Shown here in pieces: positions 9,037 to 43,268 of a DNA stretch of 49,100 bases. The position numbers were made by a program, and so were the translations under genes. Origin of the DNA: Candidatus Stoquefichus sp. (lineage in GTDB: Bacteria; Bacillota_I; Bacilli_A; Erysipelotrichales; Coprobacillaceae); contig JAETUM010000017.1 of the NCBI GenBank assembly GCA_021768625.1, positions 1-49,100 of the forward strand, read 5' to 3'. Below the pieces are notes generated by a model. That model did not search any database. It worked only from the letters and a program-made list of their open reading frames with translations, and had not been told where the DNA came from. Each line of letters opens with the position of its first letter. Within the stretch, counting starts at the first letter, position 1.

Positions 9037-9732
9037 TTAACATTTTTTTGTAAAGTGTTGGGCTATATAAAATGTAACTCTTCCTTTTGAAAGTGTTGTA
9101 TAAATACTTATGCCCACAAATTTATATTTTGTATTCTTAATCACTTTTTTATGTGTTGTACTTCCCATTAAACATTTATGAATCATGCTTGCATAGTTTT
9201 TCAAATGAGTTTGACTATAACTTGACTTTGCTGAAATCATTAAATTCGCTAAATTTTCGCCAGACGAATTTCCTTTCATATTGACTTTTGCAGCAGTTAA
9301 AGTCGTAGACCATGACTTTTTATTTGGACGTGTATGTGAAAATTTCTTTTTCAATTCTTTGGCTCTCACTAATGATGATGATTCTAACTTTTTATGACTA
9401 GAAACCTTTGTAGAACGTTCTTCATTAATTAATCTTACTAGCTCCTTTTCAACAGTTTCACATTCTTTTGCTGTCAAATTTCTAGCTTTTGTATTTTTAC
9501 TCCCAAAAGTTGCCTTATTAACAAGAACATCACCCTTGATTGTTTCATCTATTTCACCATTTTTAAGTGCTTCTTCATCTTCATCTGTTACAGCATCAAT
9601 AATTGTAACTGCACCCTCCTCTGTGTTTTGATTAACTTGTGGAACTTCCTTCTTTTCCTCATTTGAGCATCCAGTTAGTAAGAAACTCATACTTAAACAT
9701 ATAATACTTATCTTTTTAAGCAATTTTTCCAT
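9037..9732 (-). CDS. CAP-domain (SCP/PR1-type) lipoprotein
   Basis: A 231-aa secreted lipoprotein. The start at 9732 gives a lipoprotein signal (ICLSMSFLLTGC) and has a GGAGGAG site. An acidic linker follows, then a CAP domain over about residues 90-231: LVRLINEERS, RAKELKKKFSHTRPN, SGENLANLM, HKKVIKNTKYKFVGISIY and FYIAQHF match the family pattern. Bacterial CAP proteins are extracellular, often in wall or spore contexts, with unclear activity. It is the last gene of the ECF sigma operon, 13 bases after the protease gene, so it is likely part of the same envelope response. Confidence 0.82.
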   Translation of the reverse strand: MEKLLKKISIICLSMSFLLTGCSNEEKKEVPQVNQNTEEGAVTIIDAVTDEDEEALKNGEIDETIKGDVLVNKATFGSKNTKARNLTAKECETVEKELVRLINEERSTKVSSHKKLESSSLVRAKELKKKFSHTRPNKKSWSTTLTAAKVNMKGNSSGENLANLMISAKSSYSQTHLKNYASMIHKCLMGSTTHKKVIKNTKYKFVGISIYTTLSKGRVTFYIAQHFTKKC

Positions 9733-9745
9733 ACTCTCCTCCAAA

Positions 9746-11683
9746 TTATTGAGAACTAAATTTCTGTATATCAGAACCAGATACATTACCATAAATATCT
9801 TGTACCATTAAAGTTGTATAAAAATCTCCTTTAGAAATATCCATGAACTTAAATTCAAATTTTTCTTGTGGATTAACAGAAATAGCTTGTAATGTCCCTG
9901 TTGATTTCCATTCCCTAAATGGTTTAGGTTTATGATTTTTATCATACTGTACTTGCATAATTGTTGATAAAAATTGAATTTCTTGATAATCATTAATATC
10001 TATATAATTTTTAGCAGCCAAATTACTCTTTAAATTATCTGCTGGAACAACTCCAGCTAATCTAACATCTAATGTTTGTCTATTAACATGTAAAATAAAG
10101 TATGAGCGTATTACTTTGAAATTCTTAAATCCATCTTCATAATGGAACATGATAGCTGGTATTTGATAACGAATATATTCAGGACTAGAATCTATTCCTA
10201 TTAATGTTGTAACAATCTGTTCATCACCTGAACATATTGTCATAACTTTATTATTATAATTAGCAGTTAAAGTTGTATCCGTTAAAGTTAAATCAGTATC
10301 CCAATAAACTGGCATATAAGCATCTTTCATATCATCGACTTTCTGTAAAATCGCATATTTCCCTCTAGCATAATTCTTTGCTTCCTCTTTTGATAACTCA
10401 ACTGATATTTTTTCAGATTTTTCATTCTTTTCAGCTAATACTTTTGCATTTTCTAAAGCTTGATTTTCACTTTTATTTCCTTCAACAATAATACTAGAAA
10501 AGTTCAATAAATAACGATAGTATTCATCTGCAAATTCAAATCGTTGATATTCTTCTAAATAATCAGATACATGAGATATATTTTCATATGGATAATAGAC
10601 AGAAACACCACTCGCATTATCTACATTTCCATCCTCATAAACAATCATTTCATTTAAACTATTCTTTAATGTTTTGGATTCATCTGGATAATCACTTTCT
10701 AATTCATTAACTAAAGCTCCTAAATCGACTAAATCATAATCATAACTTGAACTTTTTCCGAAAGATTTTACATCACTTCTTGATGTTGATAGAGAAGCAA
10801 ACATACTGTTATCAACACTTTCCTCTGTTAAAGATGTATCTATTTTTTCAAATAAGTGATTCATACCTTTTTCAACATCATCCATCTTATTAAGATCTAT
10901 ACATGATAAAGTTGTATCTAGGTAAACATTTTGTTCTTTAGAAATTTGATCATAGAAATCTACATAATGATCTATAATAGCTTTAGCCAAACTCTCTCCA
11001 TCTATTTTATTATCAACATCTTTTAAGAAACTATAATCCCATCCATACCCAGGAATTGTTTCTTGAGAAGCTATCATATAATTAGCATGATCTTTTAAAA
11101 CATATCCTGTTTCCACACAAGACATTAAACATGCATCAAATCCAATCACTTCTAATTTGTTGTCTTTTGTAAAAGGACTATCTTCTAAAGCTGCTTTAAT
11201 ATCTGTTAACTTTAAAGTTGTTTCATATAGCTCATCATACCCATAACCAAGAATAGAACCTCCACCATGATCCCATAAAATTAAATCATAGCTATCTGTT
11301 TTATAATTCTCATATCCATAATTCAAAAACTCAGATAATGTATCAGGATCACACATATCATCTTTTTGATGATTGATTTCCTTTAATTTATAATTTTCAT
11401 CAAGCTCATAAAGTCCTCCATCCTCATGAATTTCATCACTTTGCCATGATAAAGAACCACCTAACTTGAAAACAATCTTTGTCTTATCTAAATCAACCCC
11501 ACTTTTTTCAATAGCATCAATATTAAAAGACCCAAATCCATACTGCCCCTCTAAATCACTCCCAATCATATAAATCATGATTGTTTTTGTTCCTGCAGTC
11601 CCCTGTGGCTTTGAACAACCATTGAGCACTATAACCATTGCTAAACTCACATAAATAAATAATAACTTTTTTAACTTTCTCAT
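9746..11683 (-). CDS. Clostripain-family (C11) cysteine protease lipoprotein
   Basis: A 645-aa lipoprotein; the lipobox is VLNGC (Cys23). The C11/caspase-like catalytic domain spans about 32-400, with His139 in LILWDHGGGS and the nucleophile Cys185 in VIGFDACLMS, the two family signatures. The C-terminal half (about 420-645) is a beta-rich extension, perhaps for substrate binding. C11 enzymes generally cut after Arg or Lys and mature by self-cleavage. It sits outside the membrane. It is the third gene of the ECF sigma operon, before a CAP lipoprotein, which suggests a role in envelope stress or in processing surface proteins; this is inference. Confidence 0.88.
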   Translation of the reverse strand: MRKLKKLLFIYVSLAMVIVLNGCSKPQGTAGTKTIMIYMIGSDLEGQYGFGSFNIDAIEKSGVDLDKTKIVFKLGGSLSWQSDEIHEDGGLYELDENYKLKEINHQKDDMCDPDTLSEFLNYGYENYKTDSYDLILWDHGGGSILGYGYDELYETTLKLTDIKAALEDSPFTKDNKLEVIGFDACLMSCVETGYVLKDHANYMIASQETIPGYGWDYSFLKDVDNKIDGESLAKAIIDHYVDFYDQISKEQNVYLDTTLSCIDLNKMDDVEKGMNHLFEKIDTSLTEESVDNSMFASLSTSRSDVKSFGKSSSYDYDLVDLGALVNELESDYPDESKTLKNSLNEMIVYEDGNVDNASGVSVYYPYENISHVSDYLEEYQRFEFADEYYRYLLNFSSIIVEGNKSENQALENAKVLAEKNEKSEKISVELSKEEAKNYARGKYAILQKVDDMKDAYMPVYWDTDLTLTDTTLTANYNNKVMTICSGDEQIVTTLIGIDSSPEYIRYQIPAIMFHYEDGFKNFKVIRSYFILHVNRQTLDVRLAGVVPADNLKSNLAAKNYIDINDYQEIQFLSTIMQVQYDKNHKPKPFREWKSTGTLQAISVNPQEKFEFKFMDISKGDFYTTLMVQDIYGNVSGSDIQKFSSQ

Positions 11684-11738: not shown

Positions 11739-12416
11739 TTAACCTTTTTCAATAATAGATAAAACCATCAATTTCATTTCCTCATAAGACAGATTCTTAG
11801 AAATAATCTTTAATCTTACATCGTGATAAAGACATTCAACATAATAACAATGATCCTTATTTTCACCAATGACTAATTCAATACCTTTTATTTTTGATTT
11901 TTCTTCTTGTTTATAAAATGAACTCATTTTTAAATTCGCATTCTTTTTTTCTAATTGAATATCAACCCTTCTACTTTTGTCTTTACTTATATAAGTTATT
12001 TTATTAGTATCTGCATAAATTTCACCATTTTTCTTATATATTCCATACCTCTTTTCTTGTTCTTTTAAATCATCTGGTATTTTCATATTAAATGATATTT
12101 GATAATAATCTTCTAATTGTTGTTTATCCATCTTTGTAAAGTCTTCATTATGCAAATCTGTTGTTAAATCTTTATCCAAAATAACATCAATTTTATGAAT
12201 AATTATTTTTTCTTCTTTTATATTTTTATCCACAACAAGATTTTCATCTTTTAAAGAAGGTGTATGTACTATTTGAAAATTCCATATCTCTATTCCTAAA
12301 AAAATCATTAAACATCCCAACAAACATATACCATACTTTTTCCTACGTTTTCTTTTAACAATATATTCATCTCTACGACGAAAGACATCTTGAGCCATTT
12401 GATTATAATTCTTCAT
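11739..12416 (-). CDS. Probable anti-sigma factor (single membrane span)
   Basis: A 225-aa protein with a short charged cytoplasmic N-terminus (about 1-33, rich in Arg/Lys), one membrane span (YGICLLGCLMIFLGIEIW) and an extracellular domain of about 170 residues. This is the usual layout of anti-sigma factors paired with ECF sigma factors. The outer part ends in a fold like clostridial DUF4367 (GIYKKNGEIYADTNKITYIS, then GIELVIGENKDHCYYVE). No zinc-type anti-sigma motif is visible. The start at 12416 follows an AAGGAGG site and lies 14 bases inside the end of the sigma gene, so translation is coupled. The function is inferred mainly from position. Confidence 0.7.
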   Translation of the reverse strand: MKNYNQMAQDVFRRRDEYIVKRKRRKKYGICLLGCLMIFLGIEIWNFQIVHTPSLKDENLVVDKNIKEEKIIIHKIDVILDKDLTTDLHNEDFTKMDKQQLEDYYQISFNMKIPDDLKEQEKRYGIYKKNGEIYADTNKITYISKDKSRRVDIQLEKKNANLKMSSFYKQEEKSKIKGIELVIGENKDHCYYVECLYHDVRLKIISKNLSYEEMKLMVLSIIEKG

Positions 12417-12957
12417 ACACAAAGCCCTCCTTATCAAGTTCTGATTTAAGAGCCAGTCTTGCTCGATATACTAAAGTTTCAATATTATGTACAGATTTTT
12501 TCATAACAACAGCAACTTCTTTATTACTAAAATTCTCAAAGTAAGTTAGCCATAAAACTTGTCTATATTCAGGTTTTAACTGCATAAGTGCTTTATGAAC
12601 AATAATTTTTCTTTCCTCTTTAATATATGATTGTTCTAGACTTTCTTCATCTTGTGTTAATTTTTGATAATCATCTAAAGATAAAGTTTGATGATAATGA
12701 CGCCTTAAATAGTCAATAGCAACATTTCTTCCAATAGCGTATAACCATGTTTTAAAAGAAGATTTCCCAGAGAAGACAGGCTTCTTTATAACTATTTTTA
12801 CAAAAGTATCTTCTGTTAATTCTTCAGCTATATGAATATTATCCACGAAACCATTAATATAAAAGATAAGACCATCTTTATATTCCTTAATGATTTCAAC
12901 AAAACCGTTATCATCACCATCAAGAAAACGGCGGTAACTATTTGCACCGTTATCCAT
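12403..12957 (-). CDS. ECF-type RNA polymerase sigma factor
   Basis: A 184-aa sigma-70 family member with only regions 2 and 4. Region 2 lies at about 10-90 (AEELTEDTFVKI, then FKTWLYAIGRNVAIDYLRRH), and region 4 at about 125-175 (LKPEYRQVLWLTYFENFSNKEVA, then NIETLVYRARLALK). The start at 12957 follows an AAAGGAG site; a longer frame upstream to 13050 has no such site. Next come the anti-sigma candidate, the C11 protease and the CAP lipoprotein, all in one direction. It probably drives its own operon, since an ECF-like promoter precedes it. Confidence 0.92.
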   Translation of the reverse strand: MDNGANSYRRFLDGDDNGFVEIIKEYKDGLIFYINGFVDNIHIAEELTEDTFVKIVIKKPVFSGKSSFKTWLYAIGRNVAIDYLRRHYHQTLSLDDYQKLTQDEESLEQSYIKEERKIIVHKALMQLKPEYRQVLWLTYFENFSNKEVAVVMKKSVHNIETLVYRARLALKSELDKEGFVYEEL

Positions 12958-13000
12958 GAGATTACTCCTTTCTAAAAGGAATTTTGTATCCTTCTTTTTA

Positions 13001-13028
13001 TTAGACGAGTGAAATATTAAAAACCTCA
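13001..13028 (-). promoter_or_regulatory. Possible autoregulatory ECF promoter
   Basis: On the minus strand TGAGGTTTTT (its first six bases at 13023-13028) is followed 15 bases later by CGTCTAA (13001-13007). Firmicute ECF promoters of the SigM/SigV/SigW group typically pair a TGAAAC-like -35 with a CGTC or CGTA -10. The -10 fits well; the -35 is a partial match. Confidence 0.45.
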
Positions 13029-13144
13029 CACTTTTTTTGAAATTTATCATTATATTTTTATTATATCAATTACATACACTTTCTCCAATCTATTTATCAC
13101 ATATTTTTTTCTTTAACATATATTAATAACGAAAGGAAGATATT

Positions 13145-35402: not shown

Positions 35403-36026
35403 TTATATTTTAATAATAGTGTCCGCTATTTCTTTCAACTTATCATCATGTGTAACGATAACAATAGTCTTCCCTTTTTCTTTTAACATCATTAATAATG
35501 ACATAACCATATCTCTACTCTCTTTATCAAGTGATCCTGTTGGTTCATCTGCTAAAATGATTTCACTATCATGCAATATAACTCTTGCTATAGCAATTCT
35601 TTGCTTTTGACCACCTGAACATTCACAAACTTTTTTATTCTCATATTTTTCTAACCCAACCATTTTTAAAGTATTTAATATTTTATTTCTATTTTTCTTT
35701 CTATCTTTTATTGTTGGATAAACAATCTCTAAATTATAAAGAACACTTTTATCTTCTAATAAAGCAAAGTTTTGAAACAAAAAACCTATCTTTTCCTTGT
35801 GAATTTTTCGTATATCTCTTTTTACAATTTCTTGATTACTAAGTAATACTTTTCCTTTATCCACAGGTTCAACCAATCCCATAATATTTAACAAAGTTGT
35901 TTTCCCTTGACCAGATTTCCCCATAATAACAACAATTTCATTTTCATTAATACTTAAAGAATAATCATTAAAAATAACTTGATTACCATAAGATTTAAAT
36001 ATATGCTCTAATTGAATAATACTCAT
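35403..36026 (-). CDS. ABC ATPase of a bacteriocin-type export/immunity transporter
   Basis: A 207-aa nucleotide-binding subunit of the MacB/LolD-like group. Walker A GKSGQGKTT, Q-loop FLFQNFALLED, signature CSGGQKQR, Walker B ILADEPTGSLD and switch His IVTHDD are all present. Its length and style resemble the ATPases that pair with DUF1430 (bacteriocin-associated integral membrane) proteins. It starts two bases after the permease stop, so it is co-translated with it. Third gene of the cassette. Confidence 0.88.
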   Translation of the reverse strand: MSIIQLEHIFKSYGNQVIFNDYSLSINENEIVVIMGKSGQGKTTLLNIMGLVEPVDKGKVLLSNQEIVKRDIRKIHKEKIGFLFQNFALLEDKSVLYNLEIVYPTIKDRKKNRNKILNTLKMVGLEKYENKKVCECSGGQKQRIAIARVILHDSEIILADEPTGSLDKESRDMVMSLLMMLKEKGKTIVIVTHDDKLKEIADTIIKI

Positions 36027-36028
36027 AT

Positions 36029-38023
36029 TTATACCTCCTCCAATAACTTTATTTTAGATTTTAATCGATATGTTTTTAAGAAAATATATAAACAATCAAT
36101 AAGTATAAATATAAAGAAATAAATAAACAGTTCATTAATCATTTCTAATTTTATTGATATAAGTAATGGTATAATTAGTGTTAAAAAATCAAAAACATAT
36201 ATTTCTTTAAATATTTGCATATAAGAATACCCATGAATCATTTTTATTGAAATCTCTTTTTCCTTATCTTTAATATACATACTCATCAACAGTTCTAATA
36301 AGAAATAATACACAAAACAATAAATACTCATAAATAGAATATTATCTAAAACCTTTGGATAAATCTGCTCAGTTAAAAAATTCTTAATATATTTGCTATT
36401 TTCCTGAATTTCAATATCACTTTCATCCATTATAGACGATAACAATAACTTATATTCATGAATACTCTTATGATTAGGTAAATAAAAATCTTGGCTAGAA
36501 AATTGATATTCATCATTAACAACTAAAATAATTGGATTTTTTATAGGAAATTCTATGACCAATGACGGATCATAAAAAGTATAACTTTCACTTATATAAG
36601 ATATATCTACATCTAAATCTTGATTATATGTTGCTATATCTATATTATTATATTTTTTTGGAATTAAAAGTGTTGGCTTTTTCACATCTATATGAATATC
36701 ATATAAGTGTAAGAATTCTTGATTAACAATGATGTAAGGTATATAACCTTTTGTATCCTTATTCAATAATATATCTAAAAAATCACATGCAATTGCTCCA
36801 TTATGACATAAAATTTTAGAATATCTTTTATCATCCTTAATATTTTTAATATCATAGACACTATTTATAATCTCTCTTTGATGATAGTAACTAGACAAAA
36901 GTTGATAATATGGATAATTAGGTATCGTACTACTTATAATAAATATCACAAATAAAATCATAAATATTGCCTTATTAATAAGTTGACTAAATACTATAGA
37001 ATTAAATGTCTTCCCATGACTTAAATATGTATACTTTCTAGTTTTATATATAAATAATATAAACATAAAAATTGATACTATAAAAATAGAAATAAAAATA
37101 GCAGTGAATTTCAATAAATCAAAGAAAAATGATATTGTATAACTATTGATACGTGAAACAAAAATACTAAAATAAAAAATGAAAGAAGTGACTAAAACTA
37201 AAACACACAACATTGTTTCCTTCAAATAATAATTTTTAAATATTTCCATCTGGTTATAACCTAGCAAATTAACAATTGTCATTTCTCTATATTGATTATA
37301 AAACATATAAAACATGTAAATAATAAATGACGTACCTAAAAAAATAAAAATAACAATATTATTATTTAATGATTCTTTTTCAATATGATGTTCTGATAAA
37401 CTATCAAAAGATGCATATTGAGTTTCATCTAGATAACCTTGTATTATCTTTTTAAGATTAACTATATCATTTTCATTGTTTATATAAATATAATAATTAA
37501 TATTATCATTAACAGCATGATAGTCCTCAATAAAATTTGCCATGCATCTCTCTTCGTAAACAACTTTATTTCTCTTTAAATAATTATGATCAAACAACAC
37601 ATAATAACCATCTGCATTTGATAAAATATCTGTTGAAATATAACTATGGCTTTTCACCTGAGAAAAATCGACATTTTTACCATTATACTCATATTGACTT
37701 TTTATAAAATTAAAATATATATTTGTAGGATCATATAAATAATTAGAAATAATTTCATAACCATTATCAAGATATTGGTTATATCCTGTTTTGACAACAA
37801 TTTTATTGTCAACTGCATATTCTAATAATTGATTATGTAATTCTGATAATGTATCTCTAGATGTGTTAAATATTGAAAATTCATACACTCTTTTATTTGT
37901 TATTTTTTCCAATACACTCTCTATTTCAAGATAATTTATATCTTCTTGAGATCGCTCTTGAAATAAAACACTAAAAAAGAAAGAGCTTATCAAGAAAATA
38001 ACTAAAAATAACTTTCTTTTCAT
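36029..38023 (-). CDS. Bacteriocin-associated integral membrane protein (DUF1430-like)
   Basis: A 664-aa permease partner. One N-terminal span (LFLVIFLISSFFFSVLF), a long outer domain (about 25-215), a central block of spans (about 222-365), a second outer domain (about 380-545), then the last spans. The outline resembles the DUF1430 / bacteriocin-associated 7-TM family found next to lactococcin-972-like peptides, where it serves export or immunity. The ATG at 38023 follows a GGGGGAG site; the in-frame ATG at 38086 lies inside the peptide gene and has none. Base composition is even more AT-rich than its neighbours, perhaps a sign of transfer. Confidence 0.75.
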   Translation of the reverse strand: MKRKLFLVIFLISSFFFSVLFQERSQEDINYLEIESVLEKITNKRVYEFSIFNTSRDTLSELHNQLLEYAVDNKIVVKTGYNQYLDNGYEIISNYLYDPTNIYFNFIKSQYEYNGKNVDFSQVKSHSYISTDILSNADGYYVLFDHNYLKRNKVVYEERCMANFIEDYHAVNDNINYYIYINNENDIVNLKKIIQGYLDETQYASFDSLSEHHIEKESLNNNIVIFIFLGTSFIIYMFYMFYNQYREMTIVNLLGYNQMEIFKNYYLKETMLCVLVLVTSFIFYFSIFVSRINSYTISFFFDLLKFTAIFISIFIVSIFMFILFIYKTRKYTYLSHGKTFNSIVFSQLINKAIFMILFVIFIISSTIPNYPYYQLLSSYYHQREIINSVYDIKNIKDDKRYSKILCHNGAIACDFLDILLNKDTKGYIPYIIVNQEFLHLYDIHIDVKKPTLLIPKKYNNIDIATYNQDLDVDISYISESYTFYDPSLVIEFPIKNPIILVVNDEYQFSSQDFYLPNHKSIHEYKLLLSSIMDESDIEIQENSKYIKNFLTEQIYPKVLDNILFMSIYCFVYYFLLELLMSMYIKDKEKEISIKMIHGYSYMQIFKEIYVFDFLTLIIPLLISIKLEMINELFIYFFIFILIDCLYIFLKTYRLKSKIKLLEEV

Positions 38024-38039: not shown

Positions 38040-38351
38040 TTATCCATAGTATGCTTCAAATGAATGTTTATGCCCTGTATGATCAAATGATGCTTTTACT
38101 TTTCTCTTTGTAGCAGTTGTTGAAACAGTATTTGCTTCATTACCATAAGAACACCTAGCAATTCCTTCTGCCAATTTATCATTTGCTGATAATACTGTTA
38201 CCCCTGTAACAATAGCATCTTCAGTTGATACAACAACTCCTCTTGCTGCTGCTCTCCCATCACAAGAGAAAAATGTCCACGCATTTACATTTGGAATAGT
38301 TAAAGTTAAAACTGAACCAAGTATCACAAATGTTAAAAAAATTTTTTTCAT
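38040..38351 (-). CDS. Secreted 103-aa peptide, candidate bacteriocin precursor
   Basis: A Sec signal peptide (MKKIFLTFVILGSVLTLTIP, cut probably after VNA, near residue 24) leads to a mature peptide of about 79 residues starting WTFFSC. The mature part has two Cys (one near its start, one in IARCSYG) that could form a disulfide, a Thr/Ala/Val-rich middle and a basic, His-rich end (HTGHKHSFEAYYG). No double-glycine leader. It is followed 16 bases later by a DUF1430-like permease and an ABC ATPase, the layout of lactococcin-972 cassettes, but its sequence is not obviously of that family. It has a perfect AAAGGAGG site. The activity is inferred from context only. Confidence 0.72.
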   Translation of the reverse strand: MKKIFLTFVILGSVLTLTIPNVNAWTFFSCDGRAAARGVVVSTEDAIVTGVTVLSANDKLAEGIARCSYGNEANTVSTTATKRKVKASFDHTGHKHSFEAYYG

Positions 38352-38613
38352 AAATTTATCCTCCTTTATGTTTAATATAAAGGAATTAGACTAATTTAGA
38401 AATCTATACTGTATAAAATACATCATAATTGCATAAAATACATACTCTAAATTGCATTTAATCATATATTAAAAATAATTTCCTAAATATATCTAAATAT
38501 TATTTTATCATATATATTCTTAAAGTTGTCTATATTTAGTAAAAATAAAATAGATTCATTAATAACAATTCTTCTATATTTCTTCACTTATCATAAAATA
38601 TAAAAGATTATAA
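38352..38613 (-). promoter_or_regulatory. Control region of the bacteriocin-like cassette with 20-bp-period direct repeats
   Basis: A 262-base AT-rich spacer. On the plus strand ATAAAATACAT occurs at 38413-38423 and again at 38433-38443, a period of 20 bases (two helical turns); read on the minus strand the match extends to about 14 bases. Such repeats upstream of peptide genes are typical operators (for example LytTR-type regulators in quorum-sensing bacteriocin loci). No perfect -10/-35 is obvious. The upstream half holds nothing else clear. Confidence 0.5.
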
Positions 38614-40845
38614 TCATTCTCTTGTATTTTTATTCTCAAATGCATCTTTCTTTAAAATTCCTTTTAAAGGAAGTAAAGAAATAATAAGTATCATCATGAC
38701 AACAATAAAACTTACTCCTATAATAATCAATGATGTATTTACATGAAATATATATTCCATTTCCATTAAAGCATTATATTTATAATATATATCTAAACCA
38801 TAATAAATACTTCCAAATATAAAACCAATCATAATTGTTATCAATGATTTAAAGAAATAAATTGATCCTATTTCTTTATGAGTCAAACCTAGTAATTGAT
38901 AACATCCTATATCTTCTTTTTGTTTATATAACTCAAATATAAATTGATAAATATAAATAATTGCTAGAGCACCAATAAGTAATAAAGATTGAATATCTGT
39001 TTGAGATACAGAAACTTCTTCTTGATTATAATCAGACAAACTGACTTCATACTTTTGATTAATTCGAGAAAAATCTTGAGAATATGTTATGAGAGCTTGT
39101 GTTCTTTCATGCACATTATCAAAAGAAAGTTCTATTCTTGTATATCCTGTTTCTGGATTATTTTTTAAATAGTTATTGTAATCTTTTTGATTTAGGAATA
39201 CAGAAATATCTTCTTTATCTACAACTTGAACAACTTCATATTCATGTCCCATTATTGTAATATTCTTTATATCTTCATTAATTCCTTTACTATTAATATA
39301 TGTATATGTTAATATGATTTGCCCTGATTGGATATCTTCTAAATGATATTGTTTTTGTAAGTTGGAATCCACACAATATAATGATGGTATATCATAAAAA
39401 GATTCATCTAAGCCATCTGCTAATCTTGTTGAATATTTATCCATTAAAGTTTCTGATGAAATATAGTTATATGAAACCATTGATTGAACATATGGGTTTA
39501 AATTTTTAAAATCATTTTCTATCTCCAAATATGATATTTTCTTATGTAAATCATATTCTATTGTTTGTGTATCTAAACTTATATCATTTTGATTAAATAG
39601 TGTATATTCTACAACATTCATTGTAGTAACTGTGATAATCGTAATTATTAATACTTTTATAATCATTTTCTTTTTAAATGAAATCAATTGACGCCATGAT
39701 AAATATAGCGGTCTCATATTATGCAATTTTTTATAACGATAATAGAAGTATTGAAATTCCTGTCCTTCAAAATTTCCAGTCAACGCCTTTCTTGTAGCAG
39801 CTTTAGCAGGCATCAAATAACTTACAATAGCAATAAATAAAATAATTGTACAATTCCATATAACATCTAAAGGAGAAAGTAATAATGTAACAGGTAATGT
39901 TATAAGTGATGGTAATACTATAGATAAAATGTAAACTATCGATATAGATATAACTATGGGCATAAACGATAATAATAAGCTTTGTAAGAAAACAACATAA
40001 TATATTTGTCGTTGTGTTGCTCCTATACTTCTTAATAATGTATAATCTTTTTGTTTCTTTTCAAATGATGTTAATGTTATACCATAAATAATAGCTAATG
40101 AAACCAATACAATTAACATTTGAATAACTGTTAATGTAAAAGCTATATCAAATGCACCAACAAAATCACTAGAAGTATAATTTGGATCTAGCATTAATTC
40201 TTCGTTATTGTCAATTGTCTCATTTGCTTTTGTTTTCAAATAAAGTTCATAATTATTGGATTGACACATCTCTTGAGAAACAATAATACCATGCTCATTT
40301 TCTTCAATAATACCAACAACTTTAAATTCTCCTACTTTCATATTATTTTGCCCTTCAGGAGTATAAAGCAATTTTATATATTGATTGATTTGATGAGAAT
40401 ATCCCCATCTATCTAATACACTTTTTTCTACAACTATTTCATTTTTTTGTTTAGGCATTCTTCCTTCTAATAATTGTAAAGAAAGAATTGAATAGTCTCC
40501 TTCCAATGCACTCATATTTTCATGTTGATAAGTACTTCCACAATTATAAGTTATACAATGTGGAATATCTTTTAACTTTCTTTTTTCTCCATTGATGAAA
40601 AAGTCACTTTTTTTAAAAGTACCTAAAGAAATATACTCAATATCGACTGTGTTATATACATAAGTATAATTTCCATTTTGTTTTTGATACTCAACATAAC
40701 GTTCGTTTGTTATGAGAGGAGTCAATAAAGAAACTAACATAACAGTCATTGAAACAATAAAAATCGTTATCATCATAATGATAGAATCTTTTTGATGTGT
40801 TTTTAAATCATTAATTGCAAATTTATTTAATATATTATTTCTCAT
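38614..40845 (-). CDS. FtsX-type ABC permease (Bce/Vex/MacB-like)
   Basis: A 743-aa membrane protein. First span near residue 20-45 (SIIMMITIFIVSMTVMLVSLL), outer domain (about 50-210), three spans with FtsX signature (YGITLTSFEKKQKDYTLLRS, then IGATQRQIYYVV), a further span near 400-420 with a second outer domain, and last three spans including YQLLGLTHKEIGSIYFF. The two FtsX halves mark a peptide or antibiotic-peptide transporter. The ATG at 40845 (GGGTGAT site) overlaps the ATPase gene by 11 bases. A two-component system precedes it, as in Bce-like peptide-resistance modules. Confidence 0.87.
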   Translation of the reverse strand: MRNNILNKFAINDLKTHQKDSIIMMITIFIVSMTVMLVSLLTPLITNERYVEYQKQNGNYTYVYNTVDIEYISLGTFKKSDFFINGEKRKLKDIPHCITYNCGSTYQHENMSALEGDYSILSLQLLEGRMPKQKNEIVVEKSVLDRWGYSHQINQYIKLLYTPEGQNNMKVGEFKVVGIIEENEHGIIVSQEMCQSNNYELYLKTKANETIDNNEELMLDPNYTSSDFVGAFDIAFTLTVIQMLIVLVSLAIIYGITLTSFEKKQKDYTLLRSIGATQRQIYYVVFLQSLLLSFMPIVISISIVYILSIVLPSLITLPVTLLLSPLDVIWNCTIILFIAIVSYLMPAKAATRKALTGNFEGQEFQYFYYRYKKLHNMRPLYLSWRQLISFKKKMIIKVLIITIITVTTMNVVEYTLFNQNDISLDTQTIEYDLHKKISYLEIENDFKNLNPYVQSMVSYNYISSETLMDKYSTRLADGLDESFYDIPSLYCVDSNLQKQYHLEDIQSGQIILTYTYINSKGINEDIKNITIMGHEYEVVQVVDKEDISVFLNQKDYNNYLKNNPETGYTRIELSFDNVHERTQALITYSQDFSRINQKYEVSLSDYNQEEVSVSQTDIQSLLLIGALAIIYIYQFIFELYKQKEDIGCYQLLGLTHKEIGSIYFFKSLITIMIGFIFGSIYYGLDIYYKYNALMEMEYIFHVNTSLIIIGVSFIVVMMILIISLLPLKGILKKDAFENKNTRE

Positions 40846-41515
40846 AAGTATCACCCACAATCTTACCATCTTCAATTGTGAGAATACGATCAGCTTGAGA
40901 TGCAATCATATCATCATGTGTAACTAATATTAATGTTTGCTTATATTTTCGTTGAGATAATTTCAATAATGAAACAACTTCCCTAGAACTTTTTGCATCT
41001 AAATTACCTGTTGGTTCATCAGCTAAAATAAGTGCTGGTTTCATTGCTAATGCTCTTGCAATTGCAACTCTTTGTTGTTGCCCTCCACTTAATTCTCTTA
41101 CAAAAGCTGTTTTCTTTTCTTTTAAATCAAGCAATTCTAATAACTCATTTATATAGTCTTCGTCTTCTTTGATATGATCTAAATGCATTGGCAAAACTAT
41201 ATTTTCTATAACATTTAAACTAGAAATCAAATTATAGAATTGAAAAACAAACCCCATTCTTCTTCTGCGATATCTTGATAACTGATCATCACTCATTTCA
41301 TACAACGAATGTCCTTCTAATAAAACAGTACCTTTACTTGGTCTAGTTAAACCTCCCATGACATGTAATAATGATGATTTCCCACTTCCACTTTTACCAA
41401 CAATAGCGACAAAACTTCCTTCTTCAATTGATAATGTTACATCAGATACAGCTTCAATCTTATTTTCATCATATCCATAACTCTTTTTCACATTTTTTAA
41501 TTCTAATATATTCAT
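40835..41515 (-). CDS. ABC ATPase of the FtsX-type transporter
   Basis: A 226-aa ATPase of the MacB/BceA group. Walker A GKSGSGKSS, Q-loop FVFQFYNLISSL, signature LSGGQQQR, Walker B LILADEPTGNLD and LVTHDD are present. The start ATG at 41515 follows a GAGGAGGG site. It pairs with the overlapping permease and lies 39 bases after the kinase gene. Confidence 0.94.
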   Translation of the reverse strand: MNILELKNVKKSYGYDENKIEAVSDVTLSIEEGSFVAIVGKSGSGKSSLLHVMGGLTRPSKGTVLLEGHSLYEMSDDQLSRYRRRRMGFVFQFYNLISSLNVIENIVLPMHLDHIKEDEDYINELLELLDLKEKKTAFVRELSGGQQQRVAIARALAMKPALILADEPTGNLDAKSSREVVSLLKLSQRKYKQTLILVTHDDMIASQADRILTIEDGKIVGDTYEK

Positions 41516-41554
41516 GTTATCCCTCCTCACTTCTACTATAGCCTTTTTTTCTTA

Positions 41555-42583
41555 CTACTTAGTGACTATAAATTTACTTTTTGTTTTTTTATGAGGAAGC
41601 GTAATTTTGAATAATGCTCCATTATGGTTAATCACATCAATATTCCCATGATGATCATCAATAATTCCTTTACTCATTGATAATCCAATCCCTATTCCTT
41701 TTCCTTTCTTTGATTTTCCTTGATAAAATCTTTCAAAAACATGAGGAATGTCTTCTAAATGAAATCCATCTCCATGATCTTGGATATAAATATCAATATA
41801 TGAAGAGTGATTTTCACATGTAATATCAATGATTGAATGATCTTTTTGTTCTATACAATTTTTAAGAATATTTTCAATTGCTTCACTCATCCATTTTTCA
41901 TCACAATAAATAAGATGATGAACATCATGTAATTGAAAATGAACATGATGTTTTTGTTTGAGTGGTTCTAATAAATAATCAATTTGTTCTATAATATTAT
42001 CAAAATAATATTCATCTTTATGATATTCAATACTATGAGATTCTATTTGAGCTAAATGTAACAAAGACTCAATTAAATCTTTGATTTGTTCTGTTTGACT
42101 ATATATATGTAATAATATTTCTTTTTCTTGTGAATCATCTATCATTTCTAATAACATTTCTTCTCTTAAAATCATAGATGTTAATGGTGTTTTTATTTGA
42201 TGTGAAATATCTTCTATATAATCTTTTAAATGAATTTGTTCTTGTTTTAATCTTTCTATCATTGCTTTCATTCGTGTATCTAGAATAGACAAATGAGAAT
42301 ATAAGACTGCTATAGGACTTTCTCCATCAATAATGATAGAAGAATGTTCTTTTTGTTCTAAAATATCTGAAGTTGTTTGAATTAAAATTGAAAAATATTT
42401 TTTTAAACGAAAGATAAAAATAAAATAACTCATGATACCTATTCCTATAAAGATAAAAGTCATTATAAAACAATAAATATTTTGAAAATAAAGTGTTATT
42501 ATCGATAAAATAAAAGCTACTGCAAAAGAAACATATGAAAAGATTGGATATAGTGTTTGACTTTTTACAAATCTTGTCTCCAT
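41555..42583 (-). CDS. Sensor histidine kinase
   Basis: A 342-aa kinase. Two spans (about 13-60) separated by a very short outer loop, as in intramembrane-sensing kinases next to peptide transporters. HisKA has the phosphoacceptor in DISHQIKTPLTSM (about residue 127), and HATPase has NILKNCIEQ (N box), DHGDGF and GIGIGLSMSKGI. The start ATG at 42583 overlaps the regulator's end by 19 bases; a GGGGG site precedes it. With so small an outer part it probably senses through the transporter. Confidence 0.92.
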   Translation of the reverse strand: METRFVKSQTLYPIFSYVSFAVAFILSIITLYFQNIYCFIMTFIFIGIGIMSYFIFIFRLKKYFSILIQTTSDILEQKEHSSIIIDGESPIAVLYSHLSILDTRMKAMIERLKQEQIHLKDYIEDISHQIKTPLTSMILREEMLLEMIDDSQEKEILLHIYSQTEQIKDLIESLLHLAQIESHSIEYHKDEYYFDNIIEQIDYLLEPLKQKHHVHFQLHDVHHLIYCDEKWMSEAIENILKNCIEQKDHSIIDITCENHSSYIDIYIQDHGDGFHLEDIPHVFERFYQGKSKKGKGIGIGLSMSKGIIDDHHGNIDVINHNGALFKITLPHKKTKSKFIVTK

Positions 42584-43230
42584 CTATATCCAATCCCCCT
42601 TACTGTCTCTATATAACTTTTTCCTTGATATGTTCCTAGTTTTTCTCTTAATCTTTTCATATGAACAGATATTGTATTATCCTCAATAAAATTTCCAGTT
42701 TTTTCTTCTACAAGTTCAATTAATCTTTCTCTTGTCATAACAACACCTTGATATTTAATTAAATGAAATAAAATCACATAACCAATAGCAGTTAATTCTA
42801 AAATATTATTATCCTTTTTAACTATATATTGATTCATATCAATATATAAATTTCCTGTTTTAATCACACCTATTTCTTTCTTCATTCTTCTTGATACACA
42901 TTCAATACGTGCTAATAATTCTTTCATGTGAAAAGGTTTCTTAATATAGTCATCTCCACCACATCTTAATGCTTCTACAATTGAATCTTCATCTAATCTT
43001 GCTGTTAAAAATATGATAGGAACTTGCGAAAATTGACGGATTTGTTGACATAAAGATATTCCATTACCATCTGGTAATTGTATATCCATAATAATCAGTT
43101 CTATATCCTCATTAAGAACATCTAATGCTTCTTTAATATTAAAAACTTGCTTCATGTGATATCCTTTTATACCTAAGTATTGTTTTAATACATCTTGTAT
43201 TTCTTGATCATCTTCAACAACTAATATCAT
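42565..43230 (-). CDS. OmpR-family response regulator
   Basis: A 221-aa regulator. Receiver: VVEDDQE, phosphorylated Asp49 in LIIMDIQLPDGNG, and DYIKKPFH. Winged helix at the C-terminus (GYVILFHLIKYQGVVMTRE, NTISVHMKRLREKLG). The ATG at 43230 follows AGGAGGA; the longer frame to 43266 has none. First gene of the four-gene regulator-kinase-ATPase-permease unit. A TATAAT lies at about 43255 on the minus strand. Confidence 0.93.
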   Translation of the reverse strand: MILVVEDDQEIQDVLKQYLGIKGYHMKQVFNIKEALDVLNEDIELIIMDIQLPDGNGISLCQQIRQFSQVPIIFLTARLDEDSIVEALRCGGDDYIKKPFHMKELLARIECVSRRMKKEIGVIKTGNLYIDMNQYIVKKDNNILELTAIGYVILFHLIKYQGVVMTRERLIELVEEKTGNFIEDNTISVHMKRLREKLGTYQGKSYIETVRGIGYRWRQDL

Positions 43231-43268
43231 TTTCAATCCTCCTATATAAAATATATTATAACACAATC

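Follow-up and report, generated by a model that had tools for sequence, protein, structure and literature searches.

The genes described here lie in a window of 49,100 nucleotides, a term used throughout for the whole stretch of DNA analysed, on contig JAETUM010000017.1 of a Candidatus Stoquefichus sp. assembly. Three minus-strand genes are read in one direction and encode, in order, a secreted peptide, a permease and an ABC ATPase, which is the gene order of lactococcin-972-type loci. They are closely packed, the permease ATG at 38023 standing 16 nt after the stop codon of the peptide gene and the ATPase ATG 2 nt after that of the permease (Table 1). An earlier, sequence-only reading of this DNA had recognized a lactococcin-972-like arrangement of three tight genes, and gene order, both spacings and the type of permease and ATPase agree with it. 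The G+C content is 0.33 for the peptide gene, 0.21 for the permease gene and 0.26 for the ATPase gene, with 0.28 for the window, so that recent import is not clearly indicated by composition.

Table 1. Genes and putative regulatory elements of the cassette, with window coordinates
Feature	Position	Strand	Size, details and basis
Secreted peptide precursor	38040..38351	(-)	103 aa; ORF and translation, homologues L004:7023-7358 and L005/L084, alignment
Ribosome-binding site AAAGGAGG of the peptide gene	38360..38367	(-)	Sequence
Permease, bact_immun_7tm/DUF1430 type	36029..38023	(-)	664 aa; topology scan, profile link to permeases that partner lactococcin 972 peptides, sister-permease matches
ABC ATPase	35403..36026	(-)	207 aa; Walker A (GKSGQGKTT), signature (CSGGQKQR) and Walker B (IILADEP) motifs all intact
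Direct-repeat pair ATGTATTTTATgCA/ATGTATTTTATaCA, probable LytTR-type regulator site	38410..38443	(-)	Start-to-start spacing 20
Putative -10-like TATAGA(T) that closely follows the second repeat	38403..38408	(-)	Sequence; inference

Two other parts of the window drew attention. Directly upstream of the cassette and on the same strand, positions 38614-43266 carry an ABC permease, an ATPase, a histidine kinase and a response regulator with the look of a Bce-type antimicrobial-peptide-resistance block; this block is not a conserved neighbour of the cassette, and the idea that it belongs to the system was dropped, because in genome G033 its relatives are on another contig than the cassette. Further away, at 9037-11683, two adjacent predicted lipoproteins were noticed by eye, one of them clostripain-like and the other CAP-like in its C-terminal region, with a sigma-factor-like gene nearby (12403-13050).

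The precursor, whose gene is single-copy in the genome, begins with Lys-Lys, runs on into a hydrophobic core and has an Ala just before the likely cut, which falls between NVNA and WTFF. By inspection, the signal-like N-terminal segment MKKIFLTFVILGSVLTLTIPNVNA, with W as the next residue, is predicted to be cut off after residue 24, which would leave a 79-aa mature peptide that contains two Cys and has the C-terminal end DHTGHKHSFEAYYG (HKHSFEAYYG). A search of 316 genomes of the order returned homologues in two others, G033 (43 % identity) and G038 (34 %), the latter copy matching Clostridiales bacterium VE202-01 (L005/L084, L084 being VE202-01 contig 98). Both belong to other genera, and in both the homologue is the first gene of the same three-gene order and keeps the Sec-like start; the ORF is thus not a product of chance. 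Positions that do not vary across the three sequences include the first Cys, LA...AR, one Gly, TT...R.V.A, HxH and YG at the very end. The Sec signal, the two Cys and the His-rich end picked out by the sequence-only reading are all present in the window peptide, with the qualification that the second Cys is not conserved in the family: a pair of Cys was rejected as its hallmark, the first alone being kept, and what the family conserves as its hallmark is the HxH at the C-terminus. In VE202-01, the ATPase gene behind the homologous peptide appears as two overlapping ORFs (L084:7939-8567), through a frameshift or a sequencing error.

The distribution of the peptide is patchy (3 of 316 genomes of the order), as for bacteriocins. 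A draw of 392 genomes from the phylum returned it from the window's own genome only, weak matches in this draw and in the order scan being taken as noise. No relatives of the peptide were found in plasmids or phages, and viral contigs yielded relatives of neither peptide nor permease. A species-wide contig scan found nothing with the single peptide sequence and at least one locus, L084, with the peptide alignment. The window peptide had no match in Pfam, NCBIfam, PHROGs, PADLOC or PDB sequences, and a limited set of open-access papers yielded no description of such peptides.

Lactococcin 972 folds as a two-sheet beta-sandwich (2LGN), and its family is characterized by lipid II binding and septum inhibition. 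Against the PF09683 profile of this family, the window peptide gave no match even at E 10, lactococcin 972 itself scoring 56.8 bits, and hhalign comparison of the window peptide group, a shallow profile of three sequences, with eight lactococcin-972-type sequences gave a probability under 1 %. The N-terminal signature GGxWxxG...H..K.H (GGxWxxG...HxxKxH) is absent, and the His motif is C-terminal, whereas the genuine PF09683 peptides of the class carry H..K.H near the N-terminus. AlphaFold models from a two-sequence input reached pLDDT 49 and 37, too poor to be informative; the better one, itself of low confidence, is all-beta and had no meaningful Foldseek match. These searches bear out the sequence-only observation that the tryptophan/tyrosine pattern of lactococcin 972 is missing from the precursor: the PF09683 pattern is absent, and no other family, bacteriocin or otherwise, is matched in its place.

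The permease has an N-terminal transmembrane segment, an extracytoplasmic domain of about 200 aa, four transmembrane segments, a second extracytoplasmic domain of about 190 aa and two or three final segments. By hydrophobicity profile, this topology, with a second outer domain of about 190 aa or larger, is common to the permease of locus L107, whose own peptide belongs to PF09683 and whose own permease scores above the TIGR01654 cut-off. The DUF1430 label given by the sequence-only reading is not reached directly, a profile search with the window permease returning no TIGR01654 or PF07242 match and weak FtsX only; it is supported through the sister permeases and by profile comparison. The sister permeases at L005/L084 (2.9e-12), L004:10841-12901 (4.4e-11) and L044 match TIGR01654 (bact_immun_7tm), two of them also PF07242 (DUF1430), all below the curated cut-offs. 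Moreover, the profile of the window clade aligned to that of permeases neighbouring lactococcin 972 peptides, built from three PF09683 loci and one locus with a lactococcin-972-like pattern, at 99.5 % probability (E 3e-23, 418 columns), the reversed control giving 3.4 %. The best family for the ATPase is TIGR03608 (L_ocin_972_ABC) at 239.1 bits, 16 under the cut-off of 254.85, with the next family at 159, and a sister ATPase lies above that cut-off (269.2 bits). Judged by sequence, the permease and ATPase are of lactococcin-972 type.

Relatives of the permease were counted in 31 of the order's 316 genomes, and a tree of 34 permeases shows what stands in front. A small secreted ORF directly precedes 19-20 of the 34: eleven have an HxH peptide, one a partial HxH, one a truncated peptide, three a PF09683 peptide, one a peptide with a lactococcin-972-like pattern and three another secreted peptide. 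None was recognized before the other 14, which implies that the transporter also has peptide-free uses. Peptide-less permeases are therefore not a consistent rule, a point that the sequence-only reading had singled out as a check on its bacteriocin proposal. The small secreted peptides found upstream are many and different, and among those that were scanned, no match to a known family was found. HxH falls within the last 22 residues in 10 of 13 representative non-PF09683 peptides, with 0.2 expected from per-peptide shuffling, a contrast that is overstated, as the sequences are related and not independent. Besides that of the window peptide, the ends include HRHYYGIYQN, HSHMYDKYLN, HIHTYTVNRN, HCHTYMKYTN, HSHGATSALVE and HVHTRK. 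Profile tests of the window group against the other HxH peptides gave no significant link beyond this motif, and common ancestry of all HxH peptides is therefore not claimed. Across the tree, whole peptide types are swapped while the pump stays alignable. Broken HxH-type peptide genes were also seen at L128 (G038:C128:940-1188) and L127 (G041:C38:430-765), one of them sharing a contig with the VE202-01 cassette.

The window permease falls in a clade with those of L004a, L084, L051 and L053 (support 100/99). At L051:4727-6718 and L053:3188-5155, near permease and intact ATPase pairs have no secreted peptide in front and are possible immunity-only loci. Two islands, L004:4375-13800 (G033) and L052:5294-17252 (G032), hold two to three successive cassettes of peptide, permease and ATPase with differing peptide types, placed around an agr-like module composed of AgrB, a 46-aa AgrD-like ORF, a LytTR regulator and a kinase-like gene.

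LytTR-regulated promoters contain two direct repeats of about 9-10 nt, some 21 nt apart, before the -10 element. The repeat upstream of the window peptide gene is 14 nt long with 13 of 14 letters equal, and 2.5 % of shuffles were as good in a 12-letter test. Similar pairs at 20-21 nt occur upstream at L005 (5 % of shuffles), L055 (4 %) and L056 (1 %), more weakly at L004b (23 %), and by eye at L054; TATAGAT directly follows the pair at L005, L054 and L055 as well. No repeat pairs were found at L063, L039 and L044, peptide loci of the order's other family. The window pair is the sole exact copy in its genome, near matches being at control level. LytTR regulators adjoin L004, L005, L052, L054 and L055, and L004 also has a histidine-kinase-like gene, AgrB (PF04647, 1.8e-30) and the 46-aa AgrD-like ORF. 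At least ten LytTR places were counted in the window's genome, and none of them is beside the cassette. At one locus of this genome (L099:2370-2801, contig C75), a 143-aa predicted secreted protein lacking a Pfam match is divergent from a LytTR regulator and may be a further regulated secreted peptide.

Taken together, the locus is probably a lactococcin-972-style bacteriocin operon, quorum-regulated, with a Sec-exported peptide of an undescribed HxH group and ABC-type self-immunity. A LytTR regulator of agr type would probably switch expression on through the paired promoter repeats. The product of the first gene would then be exported by Sec and trimmed to a mature protein of about 79 aa, probably beta-rich, which we infer to attack related Gram-positive neighbours from outside, with the cell envelope as the most plausible site of action. 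Together, the permease and ATPase would make up an ABC machine of MacB/FtsX-like build, with large extracytoplasmic domains, and would protect the producer by removing or blocking the peptide at the membrane. The known loci with such a layout produce bacteriocins that are exported by Sec and left unmodified, and lactococcin 972 binds lipid II (PMC11796350, PMC12345188); streptococcin B and mediterrocin, the latter from a gut relative of Clostridium (PMC12345188), are active (PMC11796350, PMC12345188). By analogy, it is most likely that the window peptide is Sec-exported and acts on neighbours and that the ABC pair protects its producer. The lone permease and ATPase pairs of near relatives fit such an immunity role, as do pneumococci that keep scbBC without scbA. 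Against a bacteriocin weigh the missing sequence or profile link between peptide and PF09683, the poor AlphaFold models, the 14 of 34 peptide-free permeases and the lack of such a regulator beside the cassette. The locus is predicted to work like a lactococcin-972 operon, and we do not claim that its peptide is a lactococcin 972.

One form of this bacteriocin reading goes further and takes the peptide for a genuine lactococcin 972 family member, with the beta-sandwich fold and lipid II binding, that has diverged too far for profiles to detect. The operon and transporter are the same, the low-confidence model is all-beta, and for mediterrocin the fold is predicted to persist in spite of an identity of 18 % (PMC12345188); yet the PF09683 and profile-profile tests are negative, the N-terminal signature is missing and the His motif sits at the opposite end, so that we hold this form to be tentative, with the balance somewhat against it. 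The 'new class' of the sequence-only reading was nevertheless too strong, since the setting is of a known kind and the peptide may be of diverged lactococcin-972 type. Rather unlikely, in our view, is that the HxH-ended peptides preceding DUF1430-type permeases constitute a large group in their own right, antibacterial and exported by Sec but with a fold unrelated to that of lactococcin 972; the invariant C-terminal HxH would then bind a metal or a target, and only the immunity ABC machine would be shared with the lactococcin 972 family.

Two further explanations dispense with a bacteriocin. The permease and ATPase could be a free-standing envelope-stress or resistance pump directed against foreign bacteriocins, with the peptide as an accessory binding or sensing protein. 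The MacB/FtsX-like architecture and the 14 pairs without a recognized peptide, two of them close relatives, would suit such a pump; where a peptide is present, however, it is the first gene and tightly spaced, the replacement of one peptide type by another beside an alignable pump is what would be expected of a toxin, and the pump type is elsewhere tied to lactococcin 972, which together make this account improbable. Still harder to sustain is a secreted signalling or cue peptide, an option raised by the sequence-only reading, that is sensed by neighbours or the producer through the ABC pair as sensor or importer: the cassettes of relatives do lie in or beside agr-like regulatory loci, but agr-type pheromone modules are present there as genes of their own (AgrB and the AgrD-like ORF), mature peptides of about 80-95 aa that diverge strongly are unlike known short pheromones, and it is with lactococcin 972 bacteriocins that this type of transporter is linked.

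Three known systems come closest to the proposed bacteriocin operon. In agr/plantaricin-type bacteriocin loci under LytTR regulation, paired direct repeats lie upstream and the LytTR regulator alongside. The window resembles these in the repeat pairs, 20-21 nt apart, upstream of the peptide gene and in the placement of relatives' cassettes beside a LytTR regulator, one with AgrB; it differs in that its own regulator is not adjacent and that the product is a Sec peptide instead of a double-glycine leader peptide. With the lactococcin 972 family (lactococcin 972, streptococcin B and mediterrocin), it shares a Sec-type precursor of about 100 aa, a predicted small, unmodified mature protein, and then a multi-spanning DUF1430/bact_immun_7tm protein and an L_ocin_972-type ABC ATPase, although the window peptide has neither a PF09683 match nor the GGxWxxG signature and is marked instead by an early Cys that is conserved and by HxH at its C-terminus. 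This suggests that the secreted peptides served by the lactococcin-972 transporter pair extend far beyond one named family and escape current profiles. Candidate narrow-spectrum bacteriocins of gut Erysipelotrichia and their relatives would come to light in a search from the transporter side combined with the C-terminal HxH. The streptococcin B locus scbABC has the same three-gene order, quorum-linked control and strains with the B and C genes only, and differs in its control by competence (ComE/ComR) rather than an agr-type system and in its own lactococcin-972-like peptide (PMC11796350). Some pneumococcal strains keep scbBC as 'immunity-only' loci without scbA, and immunity and transport are presumed for the B and C genes of lactococcin-972-type loci, albeit unproven even in known members (PMC11796350); the search from the transporter side would also give a direct test of whether these are immunity genes.
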